Source: Parietichytrium sp. I65-24A (lineage: Eukaryota > Sar > Bigyra > Thraustochytrida > Thraustochytriidae). Taken from it: 64,000 bases of DNA. Location: positions 62,001-126,000 of the forward strand of contig BLSF01000084.1 in assembly GCA_012862575.1 (NCBI GenBank), read 5' to 3'. Below are positions 7,531 to 61,928 of the stretch, in pieces. How positions within the stretch are numbered: the first letter of the stretch is position 1; each line of letters starts with the position of its first letter. The position numbers and the translations under genes were made by a program. The notes under the pieces were generated by a model. The model did no database searches. It had not been told where the DNA came from and was given only the letters and a program-made list of their open reading frames with translations.

Positions 7531-9326
7531 TATGTATCTGTGTGTATCTGTGTATGTGTCTGTGTGGGTGGGCGGGGGGAGCGCAGGGTAACGCACCTAC
7601 GCGGAGGGGTAGGGCTGCGGCTAGGAGTCGCCGGGATTGGGTCCGCCGAGGGTGCGCACGTGGAGAGGAACGTTCCCGGAACGCGCGGGGACAGCTGGGA
7701 CGGATTTGGGTTCGTTTGAAGCTCAATGGAATCTCTTCGGAGATCTGGAAAAAATGAGTGGGAAAAGATTGTCGAACGGTGGGATTCGAACAGTGGTCAG
7801 CACGGTAAGGTTATGATATGGGAGAACTCCCAGGTGGAAAACGTAGTGCAGATTGTGATGGACTCCTTTGGACCCTTGCGCTAGCGGTAGCCTAGAGAAC
7901 GGTGTCGCTACCGGTACCGGTAATTAGTGTACTACTGAGTGAGTACCCTGAGGACTCACACTAATCAAAGGCGTTCTCCTGTCCGTTATGGAATTAGCAA
8001 AACTTTGAAACTCTGAACTTTGTTGAACTTGAACTTTACATTCGACCTTTCTTTGCGGCTTGAACCCATGTTCACGAGTCGAAGAGCTTGGATACGAATG
8101 GTTCGAAGGTCCATTGCGGCGATCCGCGCATGTTCAAACGACGTGTTCTTCTCGGGTCACGCGAACTCCAAGTAACTCTGCTATTTTCGAAGACCCCAAC
8201 CTGGCTATACATGGTTTCGAAATCGCTGCTGAGCTCGGCGATGCATTTATCTGAGACATCCGAGTTGTGCACACAAGTTGCACATCCCAGAGAAAAGTGG
8301 GCAGCAGTGCAAAGCTCAGTTTTTGACAGTTGCAACGGACATTCCAAGGCCAATGATTTTTCATTTAATGTTGAATGAGATAGATGGGAGGGACGCCCAT
8401 TGATGAAAACAAGAAGATCGGGGATTCTCTTGGAATTATACTATGGAACGTATATTTTCGGCTCTCGCAAGAGTTGTCTCGACAATTGCGTTCATCTTGT
8501 GCTTGTCTAAAGGGCCCGTAGATTCGTTCTCTATAGATTAATTTTTAAGAAAATTTTCAATTCATCTTAGGAACAACGCATGCAAAGCAGTGCCTCGCGA
8601 CGTGCGAGATTCTGATCGTGGTGTGTCTTGAAACTCGAAGCACTTGGTTTGTTGGAGAGTTCGTGATAGACGCCGGGGGTGAATGCAGCCTGATTGGCAA
8701 GCAAGAGTGGGTGAGTTTGGAAGTAGGACTGTCTTGCCGAAAAACTATACGTGGCAGGATGTGCCACCGTCGGTGAGTGAGTTGGCCCCAGCCCTGATTA
8801 GTTGCGTATGACACATAAGTGAAAAGTGTCGCCCACCGCCGGCTCTGATTGGCCAACCCAGATCTCCATGACATGACTTTATTTGTCGCTCTATACTAAT
8901 TTCTCAAATGGCAATTCCTCGCGATGGTAAGCAAAGGTGTAGGTATTGCACTCTTCATATCTGTTGCCCGTGGTAGCGAGACCCTGTAGGCGTCACTCAT
9001 TTGCACGGGCGCGGGGAAACCTTTGCGCATATCCGTTTCTGTAGTGCGATTCAGCGCTACAATAAGTGCCGGCTCGTGCAAAACGAATGTATAGTGAGTG
9101 GCCCATAGGCTCGTGAGTGTGTGAATTCAAGAATGGGGAGGGTTCAAAAGACCCTCTGCCGGGAGGGGCAAATATGGCGTAGCTTAAAAGAGCCTTGCCT
9201 GGTCCTTTAACTGACTTACCGTGTTGCAGCGCACGAAATCCGAGTCGCTCAAGATTGGAAAGCAGATCCCAAAAGCCACGCAAAAATATTTGCTCGCACA
9301 GCACAATCATACAAGTTGCGGGAACA
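7531..9326. other. Non-coding interval between C2 gene and protease gene
   Basis: About 1.8 kb without a supported gene. It includes a CCGGTACCGG-type palindrome at about 7910-7922 and GTACT(A)CTGAGTGAGTACC just after it. Short open frames occur on both strands at 8060-8380 but overlap one another and show no domain. The 3' part should contain the protease promoter; I see no clear TATA box. Confidence 0.5.
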
Positions 9327-10628
9327 ATGAGGTTCTCGGTCCTGACGGTCTTGTCCATGCTTGGCAGCATCGCGGCTGCGAGAGGCGCGGAGCTGAAGGG
9401 AAGTGTGGAAAGCTTGCCAAGAGAGCTTATTTACAAAGGCACAGTTGTGGACGGATCCGATGATCCGTACCCGTTCATGCTCTCGCTGTACATTGAAATG
9501 AACAGTCAGCTGTATTACGCCTGTGGTGCTTCTCTCATACACCCAAGCTGGGCAGTCACAGCATCGCACTGCATGAACCAGATAGCGAAGGTTGGATTTG
9601 GTGCATACGTCAGGAACCCGTCCAGCAGCAAAAATTATGTCGCGATTAAAAGCTATTCCTTTCCAGCTGGCAAGAACTCTCAATTTACAGATGTTGCGCT
9701 CATCGAGCTGGCGGAGCCACTCGACAAGGACGTCGTCATCTTCAATACTGACGCATCAGTTGCGGTTGAGGCTGGAACCGAGCTAATTGCGATGGGTTTT
9801 GGAAAAATCGAGGGTGATCTGTACGCCAAAGATGCGGCGCTCAGACAGGCCACCGTCAAGGTCATGAGCAAAGCCGATTGTAGCAAGGTGTTGGACGACG
9901 TCACGGATGACCACATTTGCGTCTTAGGGGACAACAACGAATCACCTTGTCTCGGCGATTCGGGAAGCCCTCTTGTGTACAAATCGGCCAATGGATGGGT
10001 TCAAGTTGGAATTGTTTCACGTGGTCAGTATGGGTGCGACGGAACTCCGGTTCTGTACGCACGATCATCTAGCTTTGCTGCCAAGGTTCAGAGCAAGATG
10101 GGCACCGACAAACTTCGCTCCGGCCAAGCCTCTGGGCCCACTTCGAGACCTACGATCGCTCCGACTCCTTCGCCCACGACTGTGCTGGAAGGCATCGCTT
10201 CAGCAAACACCAAATGCTCTGAGACCGCACTCTTGCAAGTTTCAGCCTCAACTCCAGGCGATTGCTTGACGTCGTGTATTCTTCAAGAAGATTGCGCAAG
10301 TTTCGGGTTCATTGCCTCCCAAAGTCAATGCAACTGCTATCCATCGTCATGCACCAAGGTATCATCCTCTGACGGAGAATCTTTATTTGACATCGAAGAA
10401 GCATTGGAAGAGTCTGCTTCAAACAACTACTATTGCAAAGCGAAGTCAAAACTGTTCCGAAAATCTAAGCAAACCTCCATGTTAGACTGTGCGCGGTCAT
10501 GTTTTCAGAATGAGTGCGCTTCGTTCTACCATGACACCAAATCGAAGTACTGCTACACCACGTCTGCTTCGTGTTCCTCCAGGAAGAAGAAGCGATACAA
10601 TCTTTGGAGGGTTGAAGACCTTGTATAA
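9327..10628 (+). CDS. Secreted trypsin-fold serine protease with C-terminal Cys-rich domain
   Basis: The 433-residue product starts at ATG 9327 because this gives a signal peptide (about residues 1-19, V-L-T-V-L-S-M-L-G-S core); the same frame is open upstream without one. The S1 peptidase domain spans about 38-260: His81 in T-A-S-H-C, Asp122 in T-D-V-A-L-I and Ser212 in G-D-S-G-S-P form the triad. The residue corresponding to chymotrypsin 189 is Ser (S-P-C-L-G-D-S), so a trypsin-like preference for Lys/Arg is not expected. The usual second Gly of G-D-S-G-G-P is Ser. The mature N-terminus would be V-V-D-G rather than I-V-G-G. A Pro/Thr linker (270-286) leads to a tail with paired Cys motifs (C-L-T-S-C, C-A-R-S-C) resembling a PAN/apple or WSC-like module. 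It is predicted to be extracellular; its substrate is unknown. Confidence 0.92.
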   Translation: MRFSVLTVLSMLGSIAAARGAELKGSVESLPRELIYKGTVVDGSDDPYPFMLSLYIEMNSQLYYACGASLIHPSWAVTASHCMNQIAKVGFGAYVRNPSSSKNYVAIKSYSFPAGKNSQFTDVALIELAEPLDKDVVIFNTDASVAVEAGTELIAMGFGKIEGDLYAKDAALRQATVKVMSKADCSKVLDDVTDDHICVLGDNNESPCLGDSGSPLVYKSANGWVQVGIVSRGQYGCDGTPVLYARSSSFAAKVQSKMGTDKLRSGQASGPTSRPTIAPTPSPTTVLEGIASANTKCSETALLQVSASTPGDCLTSCILQEDCASFGFIASQSQCNCYPSSCTKVSSSDGESLFDIEEALEESASNNYYCKAKSKLFRKSKQTSMLDCARSCFQNECASFYHDTKSKYCYTTSASCSSRKKKRYNLWRVEDLV

Positions 10629-26470: not shown

Positions 26471-27343
26471 TATCGAAACTACTACAGTTAAGAATAGGGC
26501 CTATTTACTTGCTTGCCCACGCGTACGCTTTGTACATCTCCAAATCACCGCAAATTACGGCTTTTGGACGAGCCCTTCAACTCGCGAACGGTCACTTTCC
26601 CTAGCACTGGATAAGCAACAGATATGATCAGTTAAGGTAGCTACTAAGATACCTACCGTTTGATAAACTGTTTATGTGTACAACCTTGACCAAATATTTG
26701 TATTATTAATAATAATAGGAGTGTGGTTTTTTCCTAGAAATGAGTCCCGGATGTGATAGGAGAGCTGTACGAGATGACAATATTTGTGTGAAATATTTCA
26801 TGTGTAAAACCTGAAGGGAAAATGTGCGACAGACATCATCCATTCCATCGATGAGCACTTCGATATTGATGGTAAATCAGCTGAGCCAACGAAAAGAGAA
26901 CCAACCAAACAAAGAAAACCAAGGTGGGCCAAGTGTTCATCCAATCTGGTTGAAGCTTGGGCGTTGCGAAAACAACGGCAACGAGCACTTCGAGCTACAC
27001 ACATACATTCATTCATCTTTTACTCCCCTTCCAAAGTTTCCAAAGTTTCCAAAGTTCGCACCTTTTGCACCGCGCAATTTGGAAAGAACAGAAAAGAACA
27101 AAACAGAACAAGTGGTTTCCAAGAGATCAATCAATCAAAAGGCCGAGTCCCTCGTAACTTACATCTCTGTACTCGAGTACACTGCACGAAAAGTAGCCCG
27201 GGTGTTCATTGGCAGCTGTGGGGACTAAGTACTTAGTTTAGAAATTAATACTGCGGTACTGCGGTGCTCCGCACAGGCTTCTGCGGCAGGTGAAGGAAGA
27301 CAGACACAGGGAGGAGGGACGGTCGTCTGATAGACTGGAGAAG
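26471..27343. other. Divergent intergenic region
   Basis: Lies between two divergently transcribed genes and should hold both promoters. It contains a CCAAAGTTT triple repeat at about 27031-27058, GTACTCGAGTAC at about 27172 and AAGTACTT near 27230. A 134-codon plus-strand frame at 26824-27228 lacks domain features and looks like chance. Confidence 0.5.
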
Positions 27344-27997
27344 ATGAGCGCTGTGTTGGTGGATATGAAGAATACACTGCAGGCTATGGCGGTCCAGGAT
27401 AAATGGAGCACGCTGCATTTGATCCTGCTGTTCAACCTGGCCGTGGGGTTTGGTTTCTTTGTGGGCACATTGTTCATAGATTCTAGTTTTGGGAGCGGCG
27501 CTTCGTTCCAGGTTGTGAGTACTGCGATCGGACACGAAGTGTACACGTTCATCCTGCTGAATATGGTCAAAGATAAGCAGATCCGGAATGCAGACTTTCT
27601 AGGAGGAGTAATGGTCGCTGCGAACCTCATGCTATTGCAAACTGCCGCGCTGTGGAGCAGCTTTGCTGGAGGCATGGATTTCAAAGGAATGCCAGGGATG
27701 TGCCACGTCGGGGGTTCCACGGAGAGATTCATCACGGTGATCTGCACAATACTATTCTTCACTCACATTGTCTTCTCAGCGCTGGTCATGCTCTGGAAAG
27801 AAGATCTTCTGCACAATGCCGCTTACAAGCAGTACGCACCGGCGCAGTTCGAGGACGATGACTTGACCATCGTGGACGCAGATCTCCTTCCACCTGCAGG
27901 ATACCAAAGCTCTGCAAACGCCGCAGGAAATGGCCCTGTGAGCAAGGCTCCTGCGGGGCAATTTGTGATCGCTGACGATGGTGACGCGGAACTCTGA
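27344..27997 (+). CDS. Four-pass membrane protein, unknown function
   Basis: 217 residues from ATG 27344; the open frame begins earlier but with GTG. Hydrophobic segments lie at about 24-46, 57-75, 86-108 and 128-151, followed by a soluble, acidic C-terminal tail of about 65 residues ending D-G-D-A-E-L. The short loop between segments 3 and 4 contains G-M-P-G-M-C-H-V-G-G. Both ends are probably cytosolic. The layout is tetraspan-like, but the Cys-Cys-Gly signature of tetraspanins is absent and I do not recognise the family. Real gene status is supported by the regular hydrophobic pattern and by an ATG close behind a non-coding stretch. Confidence 0.75.
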   Translation: MSAVLVDMKNTLQAMAVQDKWSTLHLILLFNLAVGFGFFVGTLFIDSSFGSGASFQVVSTAIGHEVYTFILLNMVKDKQIRNADFLGGVMVAANLMLLQTAALWSSFAGGMDFKGMPGMCHVGGSTERFITVICTILFFTHIVFSALVMLWKEDLLHNAAYKQYAPAQFEDDDLTIVDADLLPPAGYQSSANAAGNGPVSKAPAGQFVIADDGDAEL

Positions 27998-51849: not shown

Positions 51850-52638
51850 TCCTAACGGGCGTAGCGAGCAACGAACTGTTCCTCTGAATTTCTCAAATTT
51901 TGTTTTCTTTCTATACGAGGTAAACTGCGCGCCAACGACAAACCTGCAAAAGATTGGTAATTTCTATGACTATATGAAATTAATTTGGCTCTAGCTAGCT
52001 TCCTTCCACTAAGCTTATGCTTAGATGGTCTTAACACTACACGATATACACGATCTCTTCTTCACAGTCAGAACATGTCAGAACAAAAGATCCATACTCA
52101 GAATACACCTCAGTCTCAGACTGACATTTGACCCAATTTCCGGTGGACTGACCACAAGTTGAGCCTTGAATAAGGCGACTCATACAATCTCATACATCCA
52201 TGTTATCGTACGTACCAGGTACTCACACTTAGGTTAAAAGTTGTTTTCGTTGCCCACGCCCATGTTTGATGACTTCAAACTTATCGGGGATTTGAGTCTG
52301 CTCATCGCAGCTGACCTACGTACTCAGTACCGGTAGCCGTGCGACTCGGCGGAGATCTTTGTGCGAGCGTAGTACATGGCCCCCCTACTATGGCAAAGGT
52401 TACATACAGCTGCTCCCTATCGTTCGTCCCCCATGTCTCCCCTAGTACATCTATCTCTTCAGAGGCTACATCAGATTCACAGTCGGGGTTGGTCAGGTTA
52501 GACTGGTTATGCATGGTTAGGCCATTCGATCACTTCAATCATCTTCAATCTTAGTTGTCAATTGAAATCATTGTCTATGCCTATCAAGATCAACCAGGAG
52601 CATCCGCGGAGGACAGCAGAATTCAGAATTCAGATGAC
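51843..52638. other. Non-coding interval before the peptide array
   Basis: About 800 bp with no supported gene. It has CGTACTCAGTACCGGTAG at about 52318, part of the recurring GTAC palindromes. A possible minus-strand frame at 52302-52514 has no domain or signal. Confidence 0.45.
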
Positions 52639-52656
52639 GGCAGACCCCGAACTGGG
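52639..52656 (+). promoter_or_regulatory. Shared upstream element, peptide gene 1
   Basis: GGCAGACCCCGAACTGGG, 92 bp before the ATG. Near-identical 18-mers precede four other peptide genes by 65-68 bp. Confidence 0.55.
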
Positions 52657-52730: not shown

Positions 52731-52970
52731 ATGAGAGTTCTCGGACTGGTAACTGTTTGCGCAGCGATGCTGCTGCAAAGCTCCTGTGCAGAGCGAGCCC
52801 TGATCCAAGGCCAAGGCCAAGGCCAAGGCAACCTGCGCAGTTCTCTCTTGGACAAGGCGCAGTACACTATGCCTACCGGTGAATCTTTCTGGGGTAGTTC
52901 CAAGAAGCTCAAAGATGCAACCAAAAAATGGTTGGTCAAAGCGGGCCAGGGCTACACAAGCTGGGGGTGA
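52731..52970 (+). CDS. Small secreted LR-core protein 1 (79 aa)
   Basis: ATG 52731 starts a signal peptide (M-R-V-L-G-L-V-T-V-C-A-A-M-L-L-Q; cleavage probably after S-S-C-A, about residue 20). The mature part begins E-R-A-L-I-Q, has a G-Q-G-Q-G-Q expansion from a CCAAGG hexanucleotide run (52805-52828), then the family core N-L-R-S-S-L-L-D-K-A-Q (34-44). The tail differs from the paralogs (Lys-rich, K-K-L-K-D-A-T-K-K) and ends in S-W-G. The stop lies at the same alignment position as in the paralogs even though a GTGAGC donor-like sequence overlaps it, so I treat it as a true stop. Function unknown; secretion predicted. Confidence 0.8.
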   Translation: MRVLGLVTVCAAMLLQSSCAERALIQGQGQGQGNLRSSLLDKAQYTMPTGESFWGSSKKLKDATKKWLVKAGQGYTSWG

Positions 52971-53040
52971 GCACGAGCGAGGCCTGTCGCCGCCGCGGTG
53001 TACGGACATTGTGCGGAAGGAAGCACGCCAAGATAAATTA

Positions 53041-53060
53041 AAAAAGCTGGCAAAAGTAAA
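53041..53060 (+). promoter_or_regulatory. Shared 3' element, peptide gene 1
   Basis: AAAAAGCTGGCAAAAGTAAA, about 70 bp after the stop. Paralogous copies (AATAAG(C/T)TGGCAAAAGTA) follow genes 2, 4 and 5. AATAAG may act in polyadenylation. Confidence 0.45.
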
Positions 53061-53131
53061 CTATCCATTGTTCATTGATCGAAACATTTTGCTTGGCTGT
53101 CACACTTCGACAGTATGGCCTCAAGAGTGAA

Positions 53132-53529
53132 GCACCGCTCATCGTGCGAGCCTTGCGAAGGAATATTTACAGCTGCGAGGGTACAGAACCCGCAGTTTCT
53201 CTCGCACACTGCGCGTCTTGCCTTCCACAACCGATGAATTTGTGAACGCTTATCTTCTGATGCGCTCTTCTTTCCTTCTGGATCTCATGCACGAAAATTC
53301 ACAGAACATTGAGCAGGATTCAAGCAAGTCCCGCCTCGCAGGGAACTGGAGTTTATTTCGCGTTACGTTCGGTCACAGCGCAGGAGTGGATCCAACGTAC
53401 TCGCCATTTCCCGTCGGCGAGGACTGTCGAAGCGACCAGACTTTTGCGAACTATCGAAGACGATTTGGATGTCCTGATTTAGCCTACATGTATCAACTCC
53501 ATGAGCTAAACATGCTCGAACAAGGCTAA
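53132..53529 (+). pseudogene. Open coding-like segment downstream of peptide gene 1
   Basis: A stretch of about 130 codons is open to a stop at 53527-53529 but has no early in-frame ATG. Composition is protein-like: L-A-K-E-Y-L-Q-L-R-G-Y at the start, T-T-D-E-F-V-N-A-Y-L-L-M-R near the middle and Q-L-H-E-L-N-M-L-E-Q-G at the end. It opens right after an AG (53131 region), consistent with an exon whose upstream partner I cannot place. D-E-F-V-N-A may correspond to A-E-F-D-A-L downstream of peptide gene 3. It is either an internal exon or a remnant of the second family in this region. Confidence 0.35.
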
Positions 53530-53581
53530 CAAAAGCGCTCATTTTCCTTTTTTTTTTTTAACGAGTTCTTTCGATCAACAG

Positions 53582-53707
53582 CACGTCACGCAGTCTACCC
53601 TGAGCCTCAGTTGGCATTGCAGAATGACGAGTCTTGAACAAATACAAAGTCTCATGGGAGTTCAAGATGAGCGAAGAGCTATTCCTTTTGAACCAGCCCC
53701 CGCTTAG
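53582..53707 (+). pseudogene. Terminal-exon-like segment of HELFSF-linked family
   Basis: Begins directly after a long T-tract and CAACAG acceptor-like end (53581). It reads H-V-T-Q-S-T-L-S-L and then M-T-S-L-E-Q-I-Q-S-L-M-G-V-Q-D-E-R-R-A to a stop. It aligns with the end of the segment at 55326-55577 (V-A-Q-F-T-L-S-L...T-S-L-E-K-I-R-S) with one in-frame 15-bp length difference. The preceding HELFSF part is absent here. Either a last exon or a remnant. Confidence 0.4.
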
Positions 53708-54198
53708 AGGAGCTTTTAACCTGGCTAGCTAGGGGTCAGTGATCGGTGGAAAGCTTTTCGTTCCCATTCTTAGCGTGACCTTTTTGGCCCACGATCATTG
53801 ATTGATCTCTGCGTGCTCGGCACTAGGGTACTCGAGTACTGTACTGATTAACAGTTTGCGGCTTCCCAGACGTCTGTTTCAGTTGCAACTCACTAGAGCC
53901 AATTGCACACTGCCACTTTATCCAGTCAATCACTTGGCAAGCGCCTTCATCAACGATTACAAAGATTACAAAGATTGGGACGCGCATAGGACTGTTCATC
54001 GAAGTTACATTGACATTGACATTCACATTCACAGTGAGCGTATCACTGACATTGACTATCCTTTTGCCCAGAGCGCCCAGTGATCAGACCTTTCCTGACC
54101 TCCTCAATGCCATTCGTTCACATTCACTTTTACAGTCAATGATAGTCGATGATCCCTCTCGATCAACCAGCAGCCGCGAGAGAGTCACTGGGGACCAT

Positions 54199-54216
54199 CG
54201 ACAGACCCCAAGCTGC
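54199..54216 (+). promoter_or_regulatory. Shared upstream element, peptide gene 2
   Basis: CGACAGACCCCAAGCTGC, 66 bp before the ATG; the most divergent copy of the element. Confidence 0.5.
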
Positions 54217-54264
54217 GCCGAGCAGCTCGACGTTGGAAGCGGAATTGAGTTTTGGAAGTGCGAG

Positions 54265-54522
54265 ATGAGAGGACTGGGCCTGGCAACTCTTTGCGCAGCG
54301 GTGCTGCTGCAAATCTCCTGCGCGGAGAGAGCCCTGATCCAAGGCAACCTGCGCAACTCTATCCAGGACAAGGCACAGACCTCTTATTCTTACGCTGCCA
54401 CTGCTGGCGGGTCGAAAACGTCAAACTACGCAAAAATGAACACGCCTTCCTCGACTTCATCGGCTTCGTCGCCTTTCGACAGGTCTTTGCTTGCCAAGCT
54501 TCTTGCTGCAACACAGGGGTGA
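54265..54522 (+). CDS. Small secreted LR-core protein 2 (85 aa)
   Basis: ATG 54265 gives the family signal peptide M-R-G-L-G-L-A-T-L-C-A-A-V-L-L-Q, with cleavage near S-C-A. The mature N-terminus is E-R-A-L-I-Q-G-N-L-R-N-S-I-Q-D-K-A-Q. Then comes a Ser/Thr/Ala-rich segment (S-Y-A-A-T-A-G-G-S-K-T-S) and a short Leu/Ala C-terminus (L-L-A-K-L-L-A-A). The frame is open further upstream, as in the paralogs, but only this ATG begins a signal peptide. The upstream 400 bp are homologous to those of genes 4 and 5. Small, secreted, no Cys in the mature part. Function unknown. Confidence 0.85.
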   Translation: MRGLGLATLCAAVLLQISCAERALIQGNLRNSIQDKAQTSYSYAATAGGSKTSNYAKMNTPSSTSSASSPFDRSLLAKLLAATQG

Positions 54523-54600
54523 ACATGGGTTGAGGCCTGTCCCGCCCGCCGCAGTGTTCAAAGGTGTTGCGGGAGCGCGTCAGACTTTCTGTAACTTTTC

Positions 54601-54620
54601 AATAAGCTGGCAAAAGTAGT
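54601..54620 (+). promoter_or_regulatory. Shared 3' element, peptide gene 2
   Basis: AATAAGCTGGCAAAAGTAGT, about 78 bp after the stop, matching the elements after genes 1, 4 and 5. Confidence 0.45.
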
Positions 54621-54989
54621 CTCCATCTGTTGCTCTTGACAATTAATATACATCAAACCTGACAGTGAGTTCTGAGTTCTGAATTCTGACAATTCTGGTT
54701 GTCGCCACAGTCTCCGTTTGTCAGAAAAGGCTTTGCGCATGGATGCTGACAGCTGGCCAAGAAGGCCAAGAAGGCCAAGACGACTGACTATCGAAGCAAG
54801 ATCTAGGTCATTAGGTCTGTGACTGTATAGTACTGTCCTCGAGTACCGCTACTGGGACGAGTGCAGTGCATTACTGGGACAGCCCTGTTTTTATCAAACG
54901 GACAGAAGGAGTTGACTGTGAGAGCACGCTGGGAGCTGTCGCGGGTCTTCTACCAGTACACGTGCACGAACGCAACACGCAGACTCAAA

Positions 54990-55190
54990 ATGGACGTCAG
55001 ATTCCTCGCCGCCGTCGTGCTACTCGCTCTCGGAGAAGGGGCTGCGGCGGATACCGTGGCACAGAGACTGCGCAGCGGGCTGGCCCGTCGAGCGCAGGAA
55101 GAAAACATTGCAGCGCAGGAGTGGATTCCAACGCTTTCGCCGATAATCGTGGAAGAGGGCCTCGGCCCCATCGAGGCGACCGGACTCTGA
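54990..55190 (+). CDS. Small secreted LR-core protein 3 (66 aa, Q-R-L-R type)
   Basis: ATG 54990; signal peptide M-D-V-R-F-L-A-A-V-V-L-L-A-L with cleavage near G-A-A-A (about residue 20). The mature sequence starts D-T-V-A-Q-R-L-R-S-G-L-A-R-R-A-Q, containing a dibasic R-R that could be a processing site. It then reads A-A-Q-E-W-I-P-T-L-S-P-I-I and ends G-P-I-E-A-T-G-L. The signal peptide is unrelated to the M-R-G-L-G group, but the position and form of the Q-x-L-R core right after cleavage are the same, linking it to genes 7 and 8. No shared upstream element is seen. Confidence 0.7.
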   Translation: MDVRFLAAVVLLALGEGAAADTVAQRLRSGLARRAQEENIAAQEWIPTLSPIIVEEGLGPIEATGL

Positions 55191-55325
55191 GGCTTCGCGC
55201 TCTGTCCAAGCCGAATTTGATGCGCTTGCCAAGTTCATCAACTTTACGAACTCAAACAGCTCGGAGAAGCCTAATTTTTATGAAAAAAAAACGAAATCAT
55301 AGCGCTCCTATTTCCCTTTTCACAG

Positions 55326-55577
55326 AATGTTCCACGCGTGCTCGTGACACACCACATGCACGAGCTCTTCTCCTTCGCAAAACGGAGTCTGGCATTCGAG
55401 AGTATCGCCATAACGCGACGCAGCAAAATTGAATTCCAAAAATTGAACGGAGAAGTCGTTGTCGCGCAGTTTACACTGAGCCTTGCGCAGCAAGAGATGG
55501 GCGTGGCTCCTGAACTGACGAGTCTTGAAAAAATACGGAGTGTCATGGAAGTTCAAGATTCTCGGGTGCTCAAGTGA
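55326..55577 (+). CDS. HELFSF-family segment, probable terminal exon
   Basis: 83 codons to a stop, beginning just after a strong pyrimidine tract and CACAG (55325). It reads N-V-P-R-V-L-V-T-H-H-M-H-E-L-F-S-F-A-K-R-S, then R-S-K-I-E-F-Q-K-L-N-G-E-V-V-V-A-Q-F-T-L-S-L, and ends T-S-L-E-K-I-R-S-V-M-E-V-Q-D-S-R-V-L-K. Copies at 56733 and 57936 differ from it over the first 20 codons only at third codon positions, which argues that this frame is or was translated. A preceding open stretch (about 55180-55302; E-F-D-A-L-A-K-F-I-N-F) may be an upstream exon, though I cannot place a donor. Family and function unknown. Confidence 0.5.
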   Translation, partial: NVPRVLVTHHMHELFSFAKRSLAFESIAITRRSKIEFQKLNGEVVVAQFTLSLAQQEMGVAPELTSLEKIRSVMEVQDSRVLK

Positions 55578-56014
55578 TCGGTGCGCACATTATCGGCTAG
55601 TATCTTCTCCGTTAGTGAATCTCTTCATTTTTTTCCCAATACCTCTTGTACCGGTACTCTCGAGATAAGCTTCGCGAGAAATTGATGACCTTCTTGGCCC
55701 ACGATCATTGGTCACTGCGTGCTCGGTACAAGGGTACTAGTTTGCGGGCTTCCCAGACGTCTGTTTTCGTTGCAACTCATAACAGAGCGCCATCTGCGCC
55801 CTAATAAGCGATTACAAAGGTTGCAAAGATTGGAACGCGCATTGGAACTGTTCATCGAAGTTGACATTGACATGCCAGATCGCTTGTAGGTACTACTCAG
55901 TACAAAGTCTGCTTAGCACTGGCATTGACTATCCCTTTCCCATACCTCCAGAGCTCAGATCTTTCCGGACTACCCCATTGCCATTCGTTCACATTGAATA
56001 CACTGGAGACCATC

Positions 56015-56032
56015 GGCAGACCCCAAACTGGG
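56015..56032 (+). promoter_or_regulatory. Shared upstream element, peptide gene 4
   Basis: GGCAGACCCCAAACTGGG, 65 bp before the ATG. Confidence 0.55.
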
Positions 56033-56079
56033 CCGAGCAGCTCGAAGTTGGAAGCGGATTTGAGCTTTGGAAGTGCAAG

Positions 56080-56352
56080 ATGAGAGGACTGGGCCTAGCA
56101 ACTCTTTGCGCAGCGGTGCTGCTTCAAACCTCCTGCGCGGACAGAGCCCTGCTCCAAGGCAACCTGCGCAGCTCTATCCTGGACAAGGCACAGACTTCTT
56201 ATACTTATGCTGCCGCTGCCGGCGGATCGAAGACGTCACACTACGCAAAACTGAACACACCTTCGTCAACTTCCTCGACTTCGACGACTTCGTCGACATC
56301 GACGATCCCAGATATTTGGAACCTTCCGCGCTACAGCAACTGGGTGGGTTAA
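56080..56352 (+). CDS. Small secreted LR-core protein 4 (90 aa)
   Basis: ATG 56080; signal peptide as in protein 2, cleavage near S-C-A-D. Mature start R-A-L-L-Q-G-N-L-R-S-S-I-L-D-K-A-Q-T-S. Then a Tyr/Ala/Gly segment (Y-T-Y-A-A-A-A-G-G-S-K), a Ser/Thr-rich stretch that could be O-glycosylated, and I-P-D-I-W-N-L-P-R-Y-S-N-W-V-G at the end. The stop is TAA where the duplicate gene has TGA, and a short deletion follows it. Located in copy 1 of the 1.2-kb duplication. Confidence 0.85.
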   Translation: MRGLGLATLCAAVLLQTSCADRALLQGNLRSSILDKAQTSYTYAAAAGGSKTSHYAKLNTPSSTSSTSTTSSTSTIPDIWNLPRYSNWVG

Positions 56353-56408
56353 GGCCGCCGTGGTGTTCAAAGGTGGTGCGGAAGCGCATCAGACTTCCTG
56401 TAACTTTT

Positions 56409-56430
56409 CAATAAGTTGGCAAAAGTAATC
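56409..56430 (+). promoter_or_regulatory. Shared 3' element, peptide gene 4
   Basis: AATAAGTTGGCAAAAGTAAT, about 58 bp after the stop; same element as after genes 1, 2 and 5. Confidence 0.45.
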
Positions 56431-56732
56431 TTTCTTTGTTGCTTCCTGACAGTGGAACACATTTTACCTCACAGAGAGTTCTGAATTCTGAAGACTTTGC
56501 GCATGGCTGCTGACAGCTGGCCAAGACGACTGACTATCGAAGCATGATTGGCTGGCAACGGGGTAGGTGCCAATAAGGATCAGATTTCGCAATGAGCTTC
56601 AACTAAAGGGCCTGAGTGCATCGCCTTCACAATCTCTGCGATACTCGTACACTACGCCAAGTATTCTTCAGCCGCAGAGTCCATGTTGATCACAAGCACG
56701 ATGCGACTCATGACACCATCCTCTTCCTTCAG

Positions 56733-56819
56733 CTCATGACACACCATATCCATGAGCTCTTCTCCTTCGCAAAACGGAGCCTTGCATTCGAGAGAATAGC
56801 ATGCATCGCCAGAATATGA
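56733..56819 (+). pseudogene. Shortened HELFSF segment in duplication copy 1
   Basis: Starts after a CCTCTTCCTTCAG acceptor-like end and reads L-M-T-H-H-I-H-E-L-F-S-F-A-K-R-S-L-A-F-E before stopping at 56819. Compared with 55326-55577 the reading frame is lost after about 28 codons, yet the first 20 codons differ only at third positions. Likely a decayed copy that was under selection until fairly recently. Confidence 0.45.
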
Positions 56820-56974
56820 CATTGCAAAATGATCCTTTCATCAAACTTGGTTCCATGGTTCCACTTGGACTTAATCCCCGTCGCTCCCAATAGCTCGCTC
56901 AGACGCTTGCTTTGGTCTGAGAGACGGCAAACTACGTTCCATAACTTTTGAAGCATGTCTCCGAGTCCTTGTGC

Positions 56975-56975
56975 N
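56975..56975. other. Single ambiguous base at duplication junction
   Basis: The only N in the window sits exactly between the two 1.2-kb copies. This suggests an assembly join or collapsed gap, so the true copy number here may differ. Confidence 0.9.
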
Positions 56976-57207
56976 TTCATAACAGAGCGCCATCTGCGCC
57001 CTAATCAACGATTACAAAGGTTGCAAAGATTGGAACGCGCATTGGAACTGTTCATCGAAGTTGACATTGACTTGTGTACTACGTACTACTCAGTACAAAG
57101 TATGCTTAGCACTGGCATTGACTATCCCTTATCCATATCTCCAGAGCTCAGATCCTTCCGAACTACCCCATTGCCATTCGTTCACATTGAATACACTGGA
57201 GACCATC

Positions 57208-57225
57208 GGCAGACCCCAAACTGGG
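57208..57225 (+). promoter_or_regulatory. Shared upstream element, peptide gene 5
   Basis: GGCAGACCCCAAACTGGG, 65 bp before the ATG, identical to that of gene 4. Confidence 0.55.
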
Positions 57226-57272
57226 CCGAGCAGCTCGAAGTTGGAAGCGGATTTGAGCTTTGGAAGTGCAAG

Positions 57273-57545
57273 ATGAGAGGACTGGGCCTGGCAACTCTTT
57301 GCGCAGCGGTGCTGCTGCAAACCTCCTGCGGTGACAGAGCCCTGCTCCAAGGCAACCTGCGCAGCTCTATCCTGGACAAGGCGCAGACTTCTTATACTTA
57401 TGCTGCCGCTGCCGGCGGATCGAAGACGTCACACTACGCAAAACTGAACACACCTTCGTCGACTTCCTCGACTTCGACGACTTCGTCGACATCGACGATC
57501 CCAGACATTTGGAACCTTCCGCGCTACAGCAACTGGGTGGGTTGA
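57273..57545 (+). CDS. Small secreted LR-core protein 5 (90 aa), near-twin of protein 4
   Basis: ATG 57273. The only clear residue difference from protein 4 is S-C-G-D in place of S-C-A-D at the predicted signal cleavage site, which could weaken or shift cleavage. The rest (R-A-L-L-Q-G-N-L-R-S-S-I-L-D-K-A-Q, Ser/Thr stretch, W-N-L-P-R-Y-S-N-W-V-G) is the same. The stop is TGA. Confidence 0.85.
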   Translation: MRGLGLATLCAAVLLQTSCGDRALLQGNLRSSILDKAQTSYTYAAAAGGSKTSHYAKLNTPSSTSSTSTTSSTSTIPDIWNLPRYSNWVG

Positions 57546-57613
57546 GGTCTGTCCCGCCCGCCGTGGTGTTCAAAGGTGGTGCGGAAGCGCATCAGACTTC
57601 CTGTAACTTTTCA

Positions 57614-57635
57614 ATAAGTTGGCAAAATTAATCTT
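57614..57635 (+). promoter_or_regulatory. Shared 3' element, peptide gene 5
   Basis: AATAAGTTGGCAAAATTAAT, about 65 bp after the stop; one base differs from the copy after gene 4. Confidence 0.45.
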
Positions 57636-57935
57636 TCTTTGATGCTTCCTGACAGTGGAACACATTTTACCTCACAGAGAGTTCTGAATTCTGAAGACTT
57701 TGCGCATGGCTGCTGACAGCTGGCCAAGACGACTGACTATCGAAGCATGATTGACTGGCAACGGGGTAGGTGCCAATCAGGATCAGATTTCGCAATGAGC
57801 TTCAAGTAAAGGGCCTGAGTGCATCGCATTCACAATCTCTGCGATACTCGTACACTCCGACAAATATTCTTCAGCCGCAGAGTCCATGTTGATCACAAGC
57901 ACGATGCGACTCATGACACCATCCTCTTCCTTCAG

Positions 57936-58022
57936 CTCATGACACACCATATCCATGAGCTCTTCTCCTTCGCAAAACGGAGCCTTGCATTCGAGAGAAT
58001 AGCATGCATCGCCAGAATATGA
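57936..58022 (+). pseudogene. Shortened HELFSF segment in duplication copy 2
   Basis: Same as 56733-56819: L-M-T-H-H-I-H-E-L-F-S-F-A-K-R-S-L-A-F-E then a stop. The upstream acceptor-like TTCCTTCAG is kept. Confidence 0.45.
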
Positions 58023-58277
58023 CATTGCAAAATGATCCTTTCATCAAACTTGGTTCCATGGTTCCACTTGGACTTAATCCCCGTCGCTCCCAATAGCTCG
58101 CTCAGACGCTTGCTTTGGTCTGAGAGACGGCAAACTACGTTCCATAACTTTTGAAGCATGTCTCCGAGTCCTTGTGCACGTACACACGCACATGAGCACG
58201 TTTTCTCACATTCTCACACTCAGGCGAGAGTAGGTGCCGGTAGCCCAACCCGTTTCGCTCTCTTCTCTGACTTTAGG

Positions 58278-58472
58278 TAAATGATCCTTTCATCAAACTT
58301 GGTTCCATGGTTCCACTTGGACTCAATCCCCGTCGCTCCCAATAGCTCGCTCAGACGCTTGCTTTGGTCTGAGAGACGGCAAACTACGTTCCATAACTTT
58401 TGAAGCATGTCTCCGAGTCCTTGTGCACGTACATACGAACATGAGCACGTTTTCTCACATTCTCACACTGAG
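58278..58472. repeat. Third partial copy of the duplication's 3' end
   Basis: AATGATCCTTTCATCAAAC through CGAGTCCTTGTGCACGTAC and on to CTCACACTGAGG repeats 58030-58225 almost exactly. One difference (CTTAAT to CTCAAT) lies in the middle. The spacer (58226-58277) is unique. Confidence 0.9.
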
Positions 58473-58864
58473 GGGAGAGTACTTGCCGGTACCGGTACGG
58501 CTTAAGCAGCGGTAACCGTACCCGTGTACGATGTAAGCTTGCCCACGGTCAGTACTCGGCGAACTCGTATCGACCCCAGTGGCCATAGCAGCGATTATAC
58601 TGTGCGCTCTACTCTACTCACACGCAAAGTTGCAGTCCCACTAGTCCCACTAAGACTCCTCTCGCGAGGCTCAGGCACTGGTTGGTGCCTCAAACAATCT
58701 TCTTTCGTCATCTCTCGTCCCTCCTCTCATCTCTTCAAAGCTCTACCAGCTACTAGAGCTAGAGCTGCTATGCACGAGATCTTTCAGAACAGCACAGATT
58801 CACAGAAAGGACATCCCCTCCTTCTATCATAGTATTTCTTTCGGTCGACCCAATTAAGACGCTC

Positions 58865-58882
58865 GGCAGACCCCGAATTGGG
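58865..58882 (+). promoter_or_regulatory. Shared upstream element, peptide gene 6
   Basis: GGCAGACCCCGAATTGGG, 68 bp before the ATG. Confidence 0.55.
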
Positions 58883-58932
58883 ACGAGCACGGTGAGGCGC
58901 ATCTGGGCTTTGGAGATTTGGAGAACGGCGAG

Positions 58933-59157
58933 ATGAGAGGACTGGGTATGGCAGCTCTTTGCGCAGCGGTGCTGCTGCAAAGCACCTGCGCAGAGCGATC
59001 GCTGCTCCAGGGCAAGCTGCGCGACTCTATCTTGGACAAGGCGCAGTACAAGTTTCCGCTTGATTACGAGAGGAGAAGGGAACAACTGTCAAAGTATAAA
59101 AAGGATAATCCTACTGAACCTCCCACGAGCTCCAAGAGCTCCTCGTGGTGGGGATAA
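58933..59157 (+). CDS. Small secreted LR-core protein 6 (74 aa)
   Basis: ATG 58933; signal peptide M-R-G-L-G-M-A-A-L-C-A-A-V-L-L-Q, cleavage near S-T-C-A. Mature start E-R-S-L-L-Q-G-K-L-R-D-S-I-L-D-K-A-Q-Y. The tail is basic and charged (Y-E-R-R-R-E-Q-L-S-K-Y-K-K-D-N), then Pro/Ser-rich, ending S-S-W-W-G. As in protein 1 the C-terminus ends in Trp-Gly, while the middle is unrelated to proteins 2, 4 and 5. So the signal peptide, LR core and last residues are kept while the centre varies. Confidence 0.85.
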   Translation: MRGLGMAALCAAVLLQSTCAERSLLQGKLRDSILDKAQYKFPLDYERRREQLSKYKKDNPTEPPTSSKSSSWWG

Positions 59158-59808
59158 CGCGCGGGCGAGCCTTGCCGCCGCCGCGGAGCACGGACAGAGT
59201 AAGCTTATGGCAAATAGCCTCCACAACCAAAACAATTTCACATACACTCATGCACGAACTTCTCGGCTATCTACTTATCTCACCATCAATTTGACACCTG
59301 GTTTCCCCAGTTCGACAGCCAGAAAGGCTCTCGCGAATAAAACAATCATTCACCGCCAACTTTTCTCTCTTTCCTTGTTCCCCGACGCGAAAAAATTCCC
59401 ATTTTGGACACGCAAAACCTGTCCCACACATCGCTCGTTATCTCTCATCGTGCAAGGTGTGTACTACTATTACCGATGGGACTCTTCGGTGTTAAGCGTA
59501 GCAGTAAGAAGGAGTCCAGGTTATCGTACTGGGACAGCCCTCCTATGCTCGGCCTAATCTAAGGCTGTTCGTTCGTTCGTTCGTTTGTTCCTTGGCTCGC
59601 CGATCACTCGAATGAGAGGTAAACTAGGTAAACTAGGAAGTGACCATGCGAGTTTTTACATGCTAATTGTTAAAAATTTTGCCAATGGCAAAGCCAGCGG
59701 CAGACCCCTTTTGGCAAGCGAGCAAGCAGTCGTGCAAGAGAGCAAGAGAGCAATCGAGCAAGAGAGAGGAAAGGGCCGTGGATCGAAAGCTTGGCGAAGA
59801 CTGCAAAT
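59158..59808. other. Interval between peptide genes 6 and 7
   Basis: The first 50 bp are related to the 3' flank of peptide gene 1 (GCCGCCGCGG then ACGGAC). A frame continuing to 59557 is open but lacks support. GTTCGTTCG/GTTTG repeats occur at about 59568-59588. Confidence 0.45.
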
Positions 59809-59994
59809 ATGACCGGCGCAAAGATCGTTGCGGCATGGGCTGTGCTCATCGCCTTGTTGCTTCAGGCGGTGGTACCAGCGGCCGCGGAGAGCTCCACCAT
59901 CGGACAGCACCTGCGCAACCGTCTGCGCAACAGCGAGACGAATGCTGAGCATGCAGCCGCGGCCAACCGCTGGCGTCAAATCCACGACATTTAG
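59809..59994 (+). CDS. Small secreted LR-core protein 7 (61 aa, Q-H-L-R type)
   Basis: ATG 59809; signal peptide M-T-G-A-K-I-V-A-A-W-A-V-L-I-A-L-L-L, cleavage near P-A-A-A. Mature start E-S-S-T-I-G-Q-H-L-R-N-R-L-R-N-S-E-T, then an Ala-rich helix and R-W-R-Q-I-H-D-I. After the TAG stop the same frame stays open for 37 more codons to TAA at 60106-60108. Clear paralog of protein 8; the two keep identical spacing of signal peptide and core. Confidence 0.75.
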   Translation: MTGAKIVAAWAVLIALLLQAVVPAAAESSTIGQHLRNRLRNSETNAEHAAAANRWRQIHDI

Positions 59995-60863
59995 TTTGAT
60001 GGGGAGTCGACTCGGGCTCGGGAGATCAAGCACGCGCGAACTTTTCATAACAAGCTCGCAGCAGTGCCTCCGGCGTGTTCTGGAGTCTGTGTAAAGAAAG
60101 CTAAATAAGACAATGTACGACGACTCTTCTTTCGTTCAATCGACTTGACTCGTGCTCATCGAATCCTTTTTTCGCCGTGGTCAACGAAGATCTTGACGCC
60201 GCGACAAGGTTACCGAGTACAAAGTGCGAGCGACTTCAAAAGTCTCCAGAAGGCTCGCTTCCTGGACTCCAAGAGCAATGGACAACTCCGAAGCACGTGA
60301 GTCTTTTGCAAGAGAAGACCCAACCTTCCAGTTGGCCCGACCTGAGCGTATTCATCGCCGCAACCAACGTTCGCGAGAGAAACTCTTGCTTCTAAAGTCT
60401 AAAGTGAAATCTAGACTTTTGCCAACGCGTTGCTGTTGAATGTATGGGCTCTTCGTTTTTTTGGTCAAAGCTGAAGTGATCGGCGATCTTTCTGGATACA
60501 AGAAGCTATCTAATACTCGTATACTCGTAGTCGACCAATTTGATTAGCTAGTTGGAGTGTCATACATACACTACATACACACACACGAAAGAAAAACAAC
60601 CCATACTGGATGGTACTCACAGTCAGTACGGAGTTTGAAAACTCGTTCAAAAGTTGAAACTTAAGCGGGCGGGCCGCCCGCAACCAGAAGTGCGGGGACA
60701 GGATCGTTGGATTTCGATGGAAGTGACATAGGTTCTGTTGATGAAGAAATTTGATTTGACGTGAATGTTGATGATCGAGTGAAGCGTTGGTTGTTATAGC
60801 GGGTTGAAATGGTCTTGTCGGACTGGAACCAGGTGATTTTGTCCTGGCGGCCAGTACATTGCT
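59995..60863. other. Interval after peptide gene 7
   Basis: No supported gene except the open extension described for peptide gene 7. It holds GTATACTCGTATACTC-like sequence at about 60515, an ACATACAC run (about 60563-60582) and TACTCACAGTCAG at 60614. Confidence 0.45.
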
Positions 60864-61200
60864 ACTTTGTCTTCAGTTTTCGGTATAACTACTTTGTCTT
60901 CAGTTTTCGGTAAAATGCTGCTAAAGGAATGGGAGTCATTACTGCTTAACATGCCTAATACTTTTGGATATATATTCTATATTTTAATTAGGGGCAATGC
61001 TCCGGGCCAATTAGGAAAAATGGCTTTGTCTACAGTTTTCGGTAAAACGCTGCTAAAAGAGTGGAAGTCATTACTGATTAACATGCCTACCTTTTGTTCC
61101 TAAATGTATTATGTGTATTCTATATTTTTAATTAGTGCCAATCTGTGAGCAACTAGAGAAAACTGGTTTGTAGAGTTTCCAATAAAATGCTGCTTAAGAC
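60864..61200. repeat. AT-rich tandem repeat, about 132-140-bp period
   Basis: CTTTGTCTTCAGTTTTCGGTA (from about 60864 and 60892), then CTTTGTCTACAGTTTTCGGTA at 61024 and a diverged third copy TGGTTTGTAGAGTTTCC at 61164. Each is followed by AAAATGCTGCTAAA-type sequence and an ATATTCTATATTTT tract. The frame crossing it repeats G-K-M-L-L-K-E-W and G-K-T-L-L-K-E-W, but this can follow from the DNA repeat alone. Confidence 0.8.
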
Positions 61201-61444
61201 TGCTCATTTGCAATCTCGTGAAGATGGAAAGTCAGTGCTTCCGCACTTCTGAAACCAACAGACAGAGATGCCTTACTGTTGAGTTGGAAAAGGTCTGAAC
61301 TTTCTACTACGTTCAATGTCTTGGTAAGTGAAATTGCGGCAGCAAACAGGAGTGCAATCTTTTGGCACACTAGTCGAGTTGGATAGAGCATGACAGAGTG
61401 CCCAGAGGCTCGGGGAGGAGATTTAGTTGAGGACGCTCGATCGG

Positions 61445-61621
61445 ATGTCTTCCTGCCTCATGAAATATTACAGGGTTTCAAAGCCAAATGGTGAGCTGCG
61501 ATCGCTTGCGATCCAAGCGAGCAAGCTTCAAGTCTATGGTGCCAAGTATGCCGCGGCTAGCGCGCAGGGTTTTCTCCAGTCTGAGAAACTTCTTCTGTCA
61601 CGAATACTAGAGCTAGAATAA
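61445..61621 (+). CDS. Possible small protein, 58 aa
   Basis: ATG 61445 to TAA 61621. It reads M-S-S-C-L-M-K-Y-Y-R-V-S-K-P-N-G-E-L-R and ends L-L-L-S-R-I-L-E-L-E. No signal peptide or domain. Composition is protein-like and it lies 127 bp upstream of peptide gene 8 on the same strand. It could equally be a chance frame or part of that gene's 5' region. Confidence 0.25.
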   Translation: MSSCLMKYYRVSKPNGELRSLAIQASKLQVYGAKYAAASAQGFLQSEKLLLSRILELE

Positions 61622-61748
61622 CTTGTGTCAAGATTGTGTGGGACTCGGAGACACAGCAGACACCCTTTGGCGCTTCCAAAATTCGTGCAGGGCGAGAAAA
61701 GGACGACTGAAAGGCTGATAAAAGCAAGCAGCAGCAACAGTTTGAAGA

Positions 61749-61928
61749 ATGATGGGCTCAAAGATCGTTGTGGCATGGGCAGTGCTCATTGCCTTGCTGG
61801 TTCAGGCAATGGTGCCGGCAACTGCAGAGAGTGCCACTGTTGGACAGCACCTCCGCAATCAATTGAGCAGCAGAATGGCCATCTCCGAGCAAGACGCCTC
61901 GCAAGAAGACAGAGGAATCACTGTCTGA
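61749..61928 (+). CDS. Small secreted LR-core protein 8 (59 aa, Q-H-L-R type)
   Basis: ATG 61749, chosen because M-M-G-S-K-I-V-V aligns with M-T-G-A-K-I-V-A of protein 7; an ATG 3 bp later is possible. Signal peptide V-A-W-A-V-L-I-A-L-L-V-Q-A-M-V-P, cleavage near P-A-T-A. Mature start E-S-A-T-V-G-Q-H-L-R-N-Q-L-S-S-R-M, followed by an acidic tail (S-E-Q-D-A-S-Q-E-D-R). The tail differs completely from that of protein 7. Easy to miss because it is under 60 residues. Confidence 0.75.
   Translation: MMGSKIVVAWAVLIALLVQAMVPATAESATVGQHLRNQLSSRMAISEQDASQEDRGITV

Follow-up and report, generated by a model that had tools for sequence, protein, structure and literature searches.

What do eight tiny open reading frames (ORFs), lined up on one strand in the thraustochytrid Parietichytrium sp. 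I65-24A, encode? They lie between positions 52,731 and 61,928 of a 64,000-nucleotide stretch of contig BLSF01000084.1 (positions 62,001 to 126,000; assembly GCA_012862575.1), the whole of which is called the window here, and a sequence-only reading had described them as tandemly expanded small secreted peptides or propeptides. Each of the eight starts at the ATG assigned to it, all are on the plus strand and 59–90 amino acids long, and in every one a hydrophobic N-terminus is followed by Q-x(1-2)-L-R-x-x-[L/I] (Table 1). That description is borne out by a start-site element, the substitution pattern and a dispersed paralogue, and on the same basis the array genes are probably real. As to their products, features of the sequences suggest genes for secreted pre-propeptides, a reading that we hold with about equal belief and doubt.

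The window was scanned on both strands for ATG-started ORFs of at least 45 amino acids with a hydrophobic N-terminus and Q-x(1-2)-L-R, in a strict and a loose form. The strict scan gave ten rows, which are the eight array loci (two of them counted again from a second internal ATG), and the loose form alone gave two more, both from a single minus-strand ORF near 9360. In 60 second-order Markov sequences the mean was 0.03 strict rows and the maximum one. Since the pattern was derived from the same eight genes, the scan shows that the array is complete and non-random, and is not an independent test.

Upstream of the genes we found an element, CRGCAGACMCC, 66–111 bases 5′ of the ATG in seven of the eight (one copy carries a mismatch). 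The window holds six exact copies, all on the plus strand and all before array genes (1, 4, 5, 6, 7 and 8). Across the genome, a 42.5-Mb assembly of 172 contigs, there are 237 sites as against 75 for the pattern read backwards, an approximately threefold enrichment, and the sites are often followed by NAAC. Among the first 30 genome sites, an ATG-started ORF of 100 amino acids or more lies 30–230 bases downstream of 20, compared with three on the opposite side. A regulatory element specific to the family was therefore rejected, as the genome count and the one-directional downstream ORFs indicate a general element, and CRGCAGACMCC is a candidate start-site or core-promoter element of this genome. 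Some of the genes behind these sites we take to be those of a histone and of S-adenosylmethionine synthetase. On contig 3, near 44105 (L016), an ORF of 64 amino acids with a hydrophobic N-terminus begins 129 bases past an element and is perhaps an unrelated tiny secreted protein.

Genome searches with genes 1, 3, 6, 7 and 8 and the dispersed protein as queries, the counts from which are lower bounds, detected at least nine members: the eight array genes and one dispersed gene on contig 111. Genes 1, 2, 4, 5 and 6 and the dispersed gene form type 1; genes 7 and 8, and weakly gene 3, form type 2. Two weak matches to gene 1 on contig 44 (expect value (E) 0.23) are SPT-repeat proteins in which ENRALL follows the signal peptide, and were not counted as members. 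Downstream of the dispersed gene, contig 111 carries two similar-looking minus-strand ORFs (L057; 2540-4036 and 5220-6668, 498 and 482 amino acids), each by eye with an apparent signal peptide and several membrane spans. The ratio of nonsynonymous to synonymous substitution rates (dN/dS) in the front end is 0.09–0.60 in 13 of the 15 type-1 pairs, the five that involve the dispersed gene having a high synonymous rate (dS above 1), and it is 0.15 for genes 7 and 8.

Growth of the array by local tandem duplication, together with one dispersed copy, is supported by the results. The units carrying genes 4 and 5 meet exactly at the single N of the window (56975), and because two 96%-identical units are joined at an N, an assembly duplication or joined alleles are possible and the secure array count is seven or eight. 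At 58279-58491 there is a further, partial copy of the unit that carries no gene. Identity between genes 4 and 5 is 95.9% in the upstream flank, 97.1% in the coding sequence and 98.5% in the downstream flank, and their differences comprise six silent changes and one replacement (P 0.003). Over their first 81 coding bases, genes 1 and 6 share 81.5% identity, with 70.9% upstream and 68.4% downstream, which is background (median 67.1% and 95th percentile 76.9% for random 100-mers). Between genes 7 and 8 there is also a short, diverged direct repeat of 66 bases with 91% identity (60892-60957 and 61024-61089).

Our view of the products starts from what follows the signal peptide. With signal-peptidase sites predicted by eye from the −3/−1 rule, R-x-L-x-Q stands directly past the site in all six type-1 proteins and in none of the three others (type 2 and gene 3). 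As a comparison we used 20 non-redundant secreted proteins of the same genome, 13 trypsin loci and seven others, a small and trypsin-rich sample with signal peptides called by a simple rule. R-x-L occurs no more than 30 residues past the predicted cleavage in nine of the 20, against a shuffle mean of 2.4–2.5, and nine was reached by 2 of 1000 shuffles in one run and by none of 1000 in a second. Later 30-residue segments of the same proteins gave 1, 0 and 2, the reversed motif L-x-R gave 2, and R-x-L in 31 non-secreted ORFs was at chance level with 6. The longer form R-x-L-x-[EDQ] was present in four of the 20, with a shuffle mean of 0.4.

The trypsins show what such a segment can look like. 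R-x-L is present in 7 of 15 trypsin pro-segments (shuffle mean 2.4; 27 of 10,000 as high), a count that leaves out L061, L066 and L079, in which the N-terminus or signal peptide is not clear, the near copy L074, and L072, L077, L086 and L087, from which nothing was extracted, L077 having R-x-L past its signal peptide. A hand-picked count of 7/11 was set aside, as it had omitted L059, L060, L068 and L084, all without R-x-L. An R or K directly precedes the mature start in 12 of the 15. Trypsin-type proteases must be cut before I-V-G-G, the mature N-terminus being fixed by enzyme chemistry, so R-x-L falls within the activation peptide, and it is after R or K that the last cut is made. Examples are DRKLQNLR followed by IVGG and SRSLLEGK followed by IVNG, both close to ERSLLQGKLR of gene 6. 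A secreted trypsin encoded in the window itself (9195-10628, plus strand) has a PAN-like C-terminal stretch and R-E-L in its pro-segment.

As pre-propeptides, the array proteins would be handled in a similar way. Signal peptidase would cut just before [ED], and a pro-segment of about ten residues would follow, reading [ED]-R-[AS]-L-[LI]-Q-[GT]-x-L-R in type 1 and E-S-x-T-[IV]-G-Q-H-L-R in genes 7 and 8. In type 1, the enzyme acting on R-x-L in this organism's other secreted proteins could cut past that motif, a trypsin-like enzyme could cut past L-R, as zymogens are cut before I-V-G-G, or both could act; Q-x-L-R as the end of the pro-segment is suggested by analogy with the trypsins. The remaining 23–60 residues, with no cysteine past L-R in any of the nine proteins, would act outside the cell. 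An RXL pre-propeptide is a possible model for type 1 and need not be one for type 2. A first guess at the role would be signalling or competition with other microbes, and a matrix role is not separated from these.

Several observations weigh against this reading. R-x-L is limited to type 1, which is six of the nine proteins. Its enrichment comes chiefly from trypsins, a set of mutually related proteins (7 of 13 trypsin loci vs 2 of 7 others), and one of the two non-trypsin positives, from contig 44, had been fetched for its resemblance to gene 1; in favour of the reading, the count without that protein is 8 of 19, and 0 of 2000 shuffles were as high. L-R as a general pro-segment signal was not significant (5 of 20; 94 of 1000 shuffles as high) and was given up. 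The conserved block of the type-1 array genes extends past L-R through S-[IL]-x-D-K-A-Q, and conservation thus does not stop at the proposed cut. At the level of the genes, the region upstream of gene 3 is without the element, dN/dS is near 1 in pairs 2/4 and 2/5 (0.95 and 1.15), and genes 4 and 5 resemble each other about as much in their flanks as in their coding parts, so that the selection argument for this pair rests on the kind of change.

Whether the array is one family also has to be considered. Type-1 array genes are conserved from Met through [ED]-R-[AS]-L-[LI]-Q-G-[NK]-L-R-x-S-[IL]-x-D-K-A-Q, past which good alignment is confined to genes 2, 4 and 5. The shared LR core noted in the sequence-only reading is present, and what type 1 conserves is longer, running from the signal peptide to D-K-A-Q, with glycine as the last residue of each protein. 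The two sub-types of that reading are likewise seen, genes 7 and 8 being 58% identical, with the qualification that gene 3 joins type 2 weakly (31% identity to gene 7). An hhalign comparison of type 1 with type 2 (probability 4.5%, E 0.009) did not establish that all eight form one family. Two unrelated small secreted families side by side, with Q-x-L-R in common by coincidence or convergence, are a strong alternative that falls a little short of an even chance. The profile comparison favours it, as do the different signal peptides of the two types and the lack of both R-x-L and the final glycine in type 2 and gene 3. It has to contend with the common strand and neighbourhood and with the position of L-R, which occupies residues 9-10 past the predicted cleavage in seven of the nine proteins (genes 2, 4, 5, 6, 7 and 8 and the dispersed gene), and is displaced by six residues towards the C-terminus in gene 1 and by two towards the N-terminus in gene 3.

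It is also conceivable, if somewhat unlikely, that these are small proteins used whole after signal-peptide removal, with antimicrobial, adhesive or matrix functions and the LR core in the active part. The extension of the type-1 block beyond L-R argues for such a use, and the tail of gene 1 is basic (+4). Against it, R-x-L is placed as in the trypsin pro-segments, and the net charge of the tails, from −4 to +4, shows no pattern. AlphaFold on the type-1 alignment gave a mean predicted local distance difference test score (pLDDT) of 53 and no usable fold, and a solved-structure search with the gene 4 protein as sole query returned no match.

The sequence-only reading had further been reminded of RxLR-type effectors, and this kinship is not supported: R-x-L-R or EER is found in none of the nine proteins. 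The array is not an RxLR family, and the closer likeness is the R-x-L-x-Q of type 1, which would fit a processing site as well. Judged from sequence, host-delivered RxLR- or PEXEL-like effectors, in which the front end would direct entry into another cell, are a quite improbable explanation. The proteins are secreted and small, with variable tails and a tandem arrangement, and in six of the nine R-x-L-x-Q fits the form RXLXE/D/Q given for PEXEL in the part of PMC11754927 available to us. Besides the missing R-x-L-R and EER, however, R-x-L also precedes digestive trypsins, and the genome searches detect nine members, as a lower bound, and not hundreds.

That the ORFs are spurious or decaying is highly improbable. 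In its favour are the near-neutral front end of gene 2 relative to genes 4 and 5 and the lack of database relatives. Among approximately 5.8 billion proteins no relatives were found at E up to 10, either for type 1 (7126 candidates) or for type 2 and gene 3 (72 candidates), and the type-1 search of viral contigs gave no match. None of the eight array proteins exceeded a curated Pfam cut-off (best E 0.19), and Rfam and tRNA scans of the window had no matches. As a control, 217 residues of the neighbouring ORF 27290-27997 were also without a match at E 0.001; the lineage thus seems poorly represented, and the lack of relatives says little. Start-site elements, the dN/dS of the other pairs, the dispersed paralogue and reading frames intact in nine of nine all speak for genuine genes. 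Small secreted orphan proteins encoded in tandem are familiar, and our literature search found no family like this one described; what makes it a variant worth testing is a short pro-segment containing R-x-L-x-Q and Q-x-L-R, combined with a terminal glycine.

The glycine itself ends all six type-1 proteins and none of the three others, with a tryptophan within two residues before it in five of the six, and most of the middles do not align. In the genome, two loci match PF01082 (copper type II monooxygenase), both large ORFs with DOMON domains (L054 and L055, contigs 6 and 91), in a layout that we take to be that of a dopamine monooxygenase, unlike an amidating enzyme. No dedicated peptidyl-glycine amidating enzyme was detected in this search, which an intron-split gene could escape. 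That type 1 encodes precursors whose last glycine would donate a C-terminal amide to the peptide is in keeping with the glycine in six of six and the nearby tryptophan despite mostly unalignable middles, and yet has only the faintest of chances as judged from sequence, given that the sole copper type II monooxygenase loci found are DOMON-type, that type 2 and gene 3 lack the glycine, and that the type-1 C-termini are related and the glycine is not six independent events.

Table 1. Coordinates of the array genes, the upstream elements, the tandem units and the dispersed paralogue (window positions unless a contig is named)
Feature	Position	Strand	Remarks
Gene 1	52731..52970	+	type 1, 79 aa (amino acids); core QGNLR after a six-residue QG-repeat insertion; C-terminal SWG
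Gene 2	54265..54522	+	type 1, 85 aa; C-terminal TQG
Gene 3	54990..55190	+	weakly type 2, 66 aa; core QRLR; start-site element not found upstream
Gene 4	56080..56352	+	type 1, 90 aa; C-terminal WVG
Gene 5	57273..57545	+	type 1, 90 aa; near-duplicate of gene 4
Gene 6	58933..59157	+	type 1, 74 aa; core QGKLR; C-terminal WWG
Gene 7	59809..59994	+	type 2, 61 aa; core QHLR
Gene 8	61749..61928	+	type 2, 59 aa; core QHLR
Element CGGCAGACCCC	52638..52648	+	93 bases before gene 1 ATG
Element, one mismatch	54199..54209	+	66 bases before gene 2 ATG
Element	56014..56024	+	66 bases before gene 4 ATG
Element	57207..57217	+	66 bases before gene 5 ATG
Element	58864..58874	+	69 bases before gene 6 ATG
Element	59698..59708	+	111 bases before gene 7 ATG
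Element CAGCAGACACC	61654..61664	+	95 bases before gene 8 ATG
Two head-to-tail 1.2-kb units with genes 4 and 5	55777..58177		55777-56974 and 56977-58177, 96% identical
Dispersed type-1 gene	contig 111		84 aa; ERALLQTNLR; C-terminal NWG; CGGCAGACCCC upstream

Two further look-ups in the genome stand apart from the array. PfaD had no match over the cut-off and four weak matches, and when a TPI-GAPDH fusion was sought, TIM matches appeared in frames 450 and 256 amino acids long. The gene content suggests a eukaryote, and SPT-rich secreted proteins together with long ORFs free of introns are traits that would suit a labyrinthulomycete.

Should the pre-propeptide reading be right, the array would bear on a wider question. 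In the parts of the sources available to us, RXLR is cut after the leucine in one effector and is located no more than 40 residues from the signal peptide (PMC11754927), diatom SAPs have RXL after the signal peptide with a hypothesised precursor processing in which the N-terminal sites mark a propeptide cut (PMC5647440), and RXL domains are removed by an unknown protease, as in silaffins (PMC5525289). The available part of the 2017 paper places RXL sites so far only in biosilica proteins (PMC5647440), and those of PMC5525289 and PMC11754927 do not settle which enzyme cuts RXL and RXLR sites. We consider it a speculative and clearly unlikely idea that R-x-L past the signal peptide is the lineage's general pro-segment cutting signal, serving digestive zymogens and short, perhaps hormone-like peptides, with diatom RXL and oomycete RXLR as specialised uses of an older step and the array as its simplest substrates. 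From such small natural substrates and the trypsin zymogens one could read the cut site directly, and could tell whether the step arose before it was put to use in cell walls or infection. Should the products be signalling peptides, the array would also open a way to study how a microbial eukaryote communicates by peptides.

Among known systems, the trypsin zymogens of the same genome share R-x-L followed by a basic residue before the mature start, whereas the array proteins have no protease domain and are 59–90 residues long instead of hundreds. Clusters of small secreted proteins in fungi and oomycetes are in general likewise tandem, small and secreted with variable tails, but the array tails are cysteine-free. 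Oomycete RXLR effectors have a signal peptide, a short arginine-leucine motif and a variable tail as well, and differ from all nine proteins here in having R-x-L-R and, in many members, EER after it. Plasmodium PEXEL, in proteins cut by plasmepsin V and exported to a host cell, is matched by R-x-L-x-Q in type 1 only, and in type 1 the motif lies directly at the predicted signal-peptidase site. The diatom RXL pro-regions of biosilica proteins (silaffins, silacidins, cingulins, frustulins, SAPs and Silicanin-1) share with the six type-1 proteins a signal peptide and then R-x-L, which in the array starts two residues past the predicted cleavage, whereas Silicanin-1, in the partial account available to us, has a 30-residue stretch ending in RRL.

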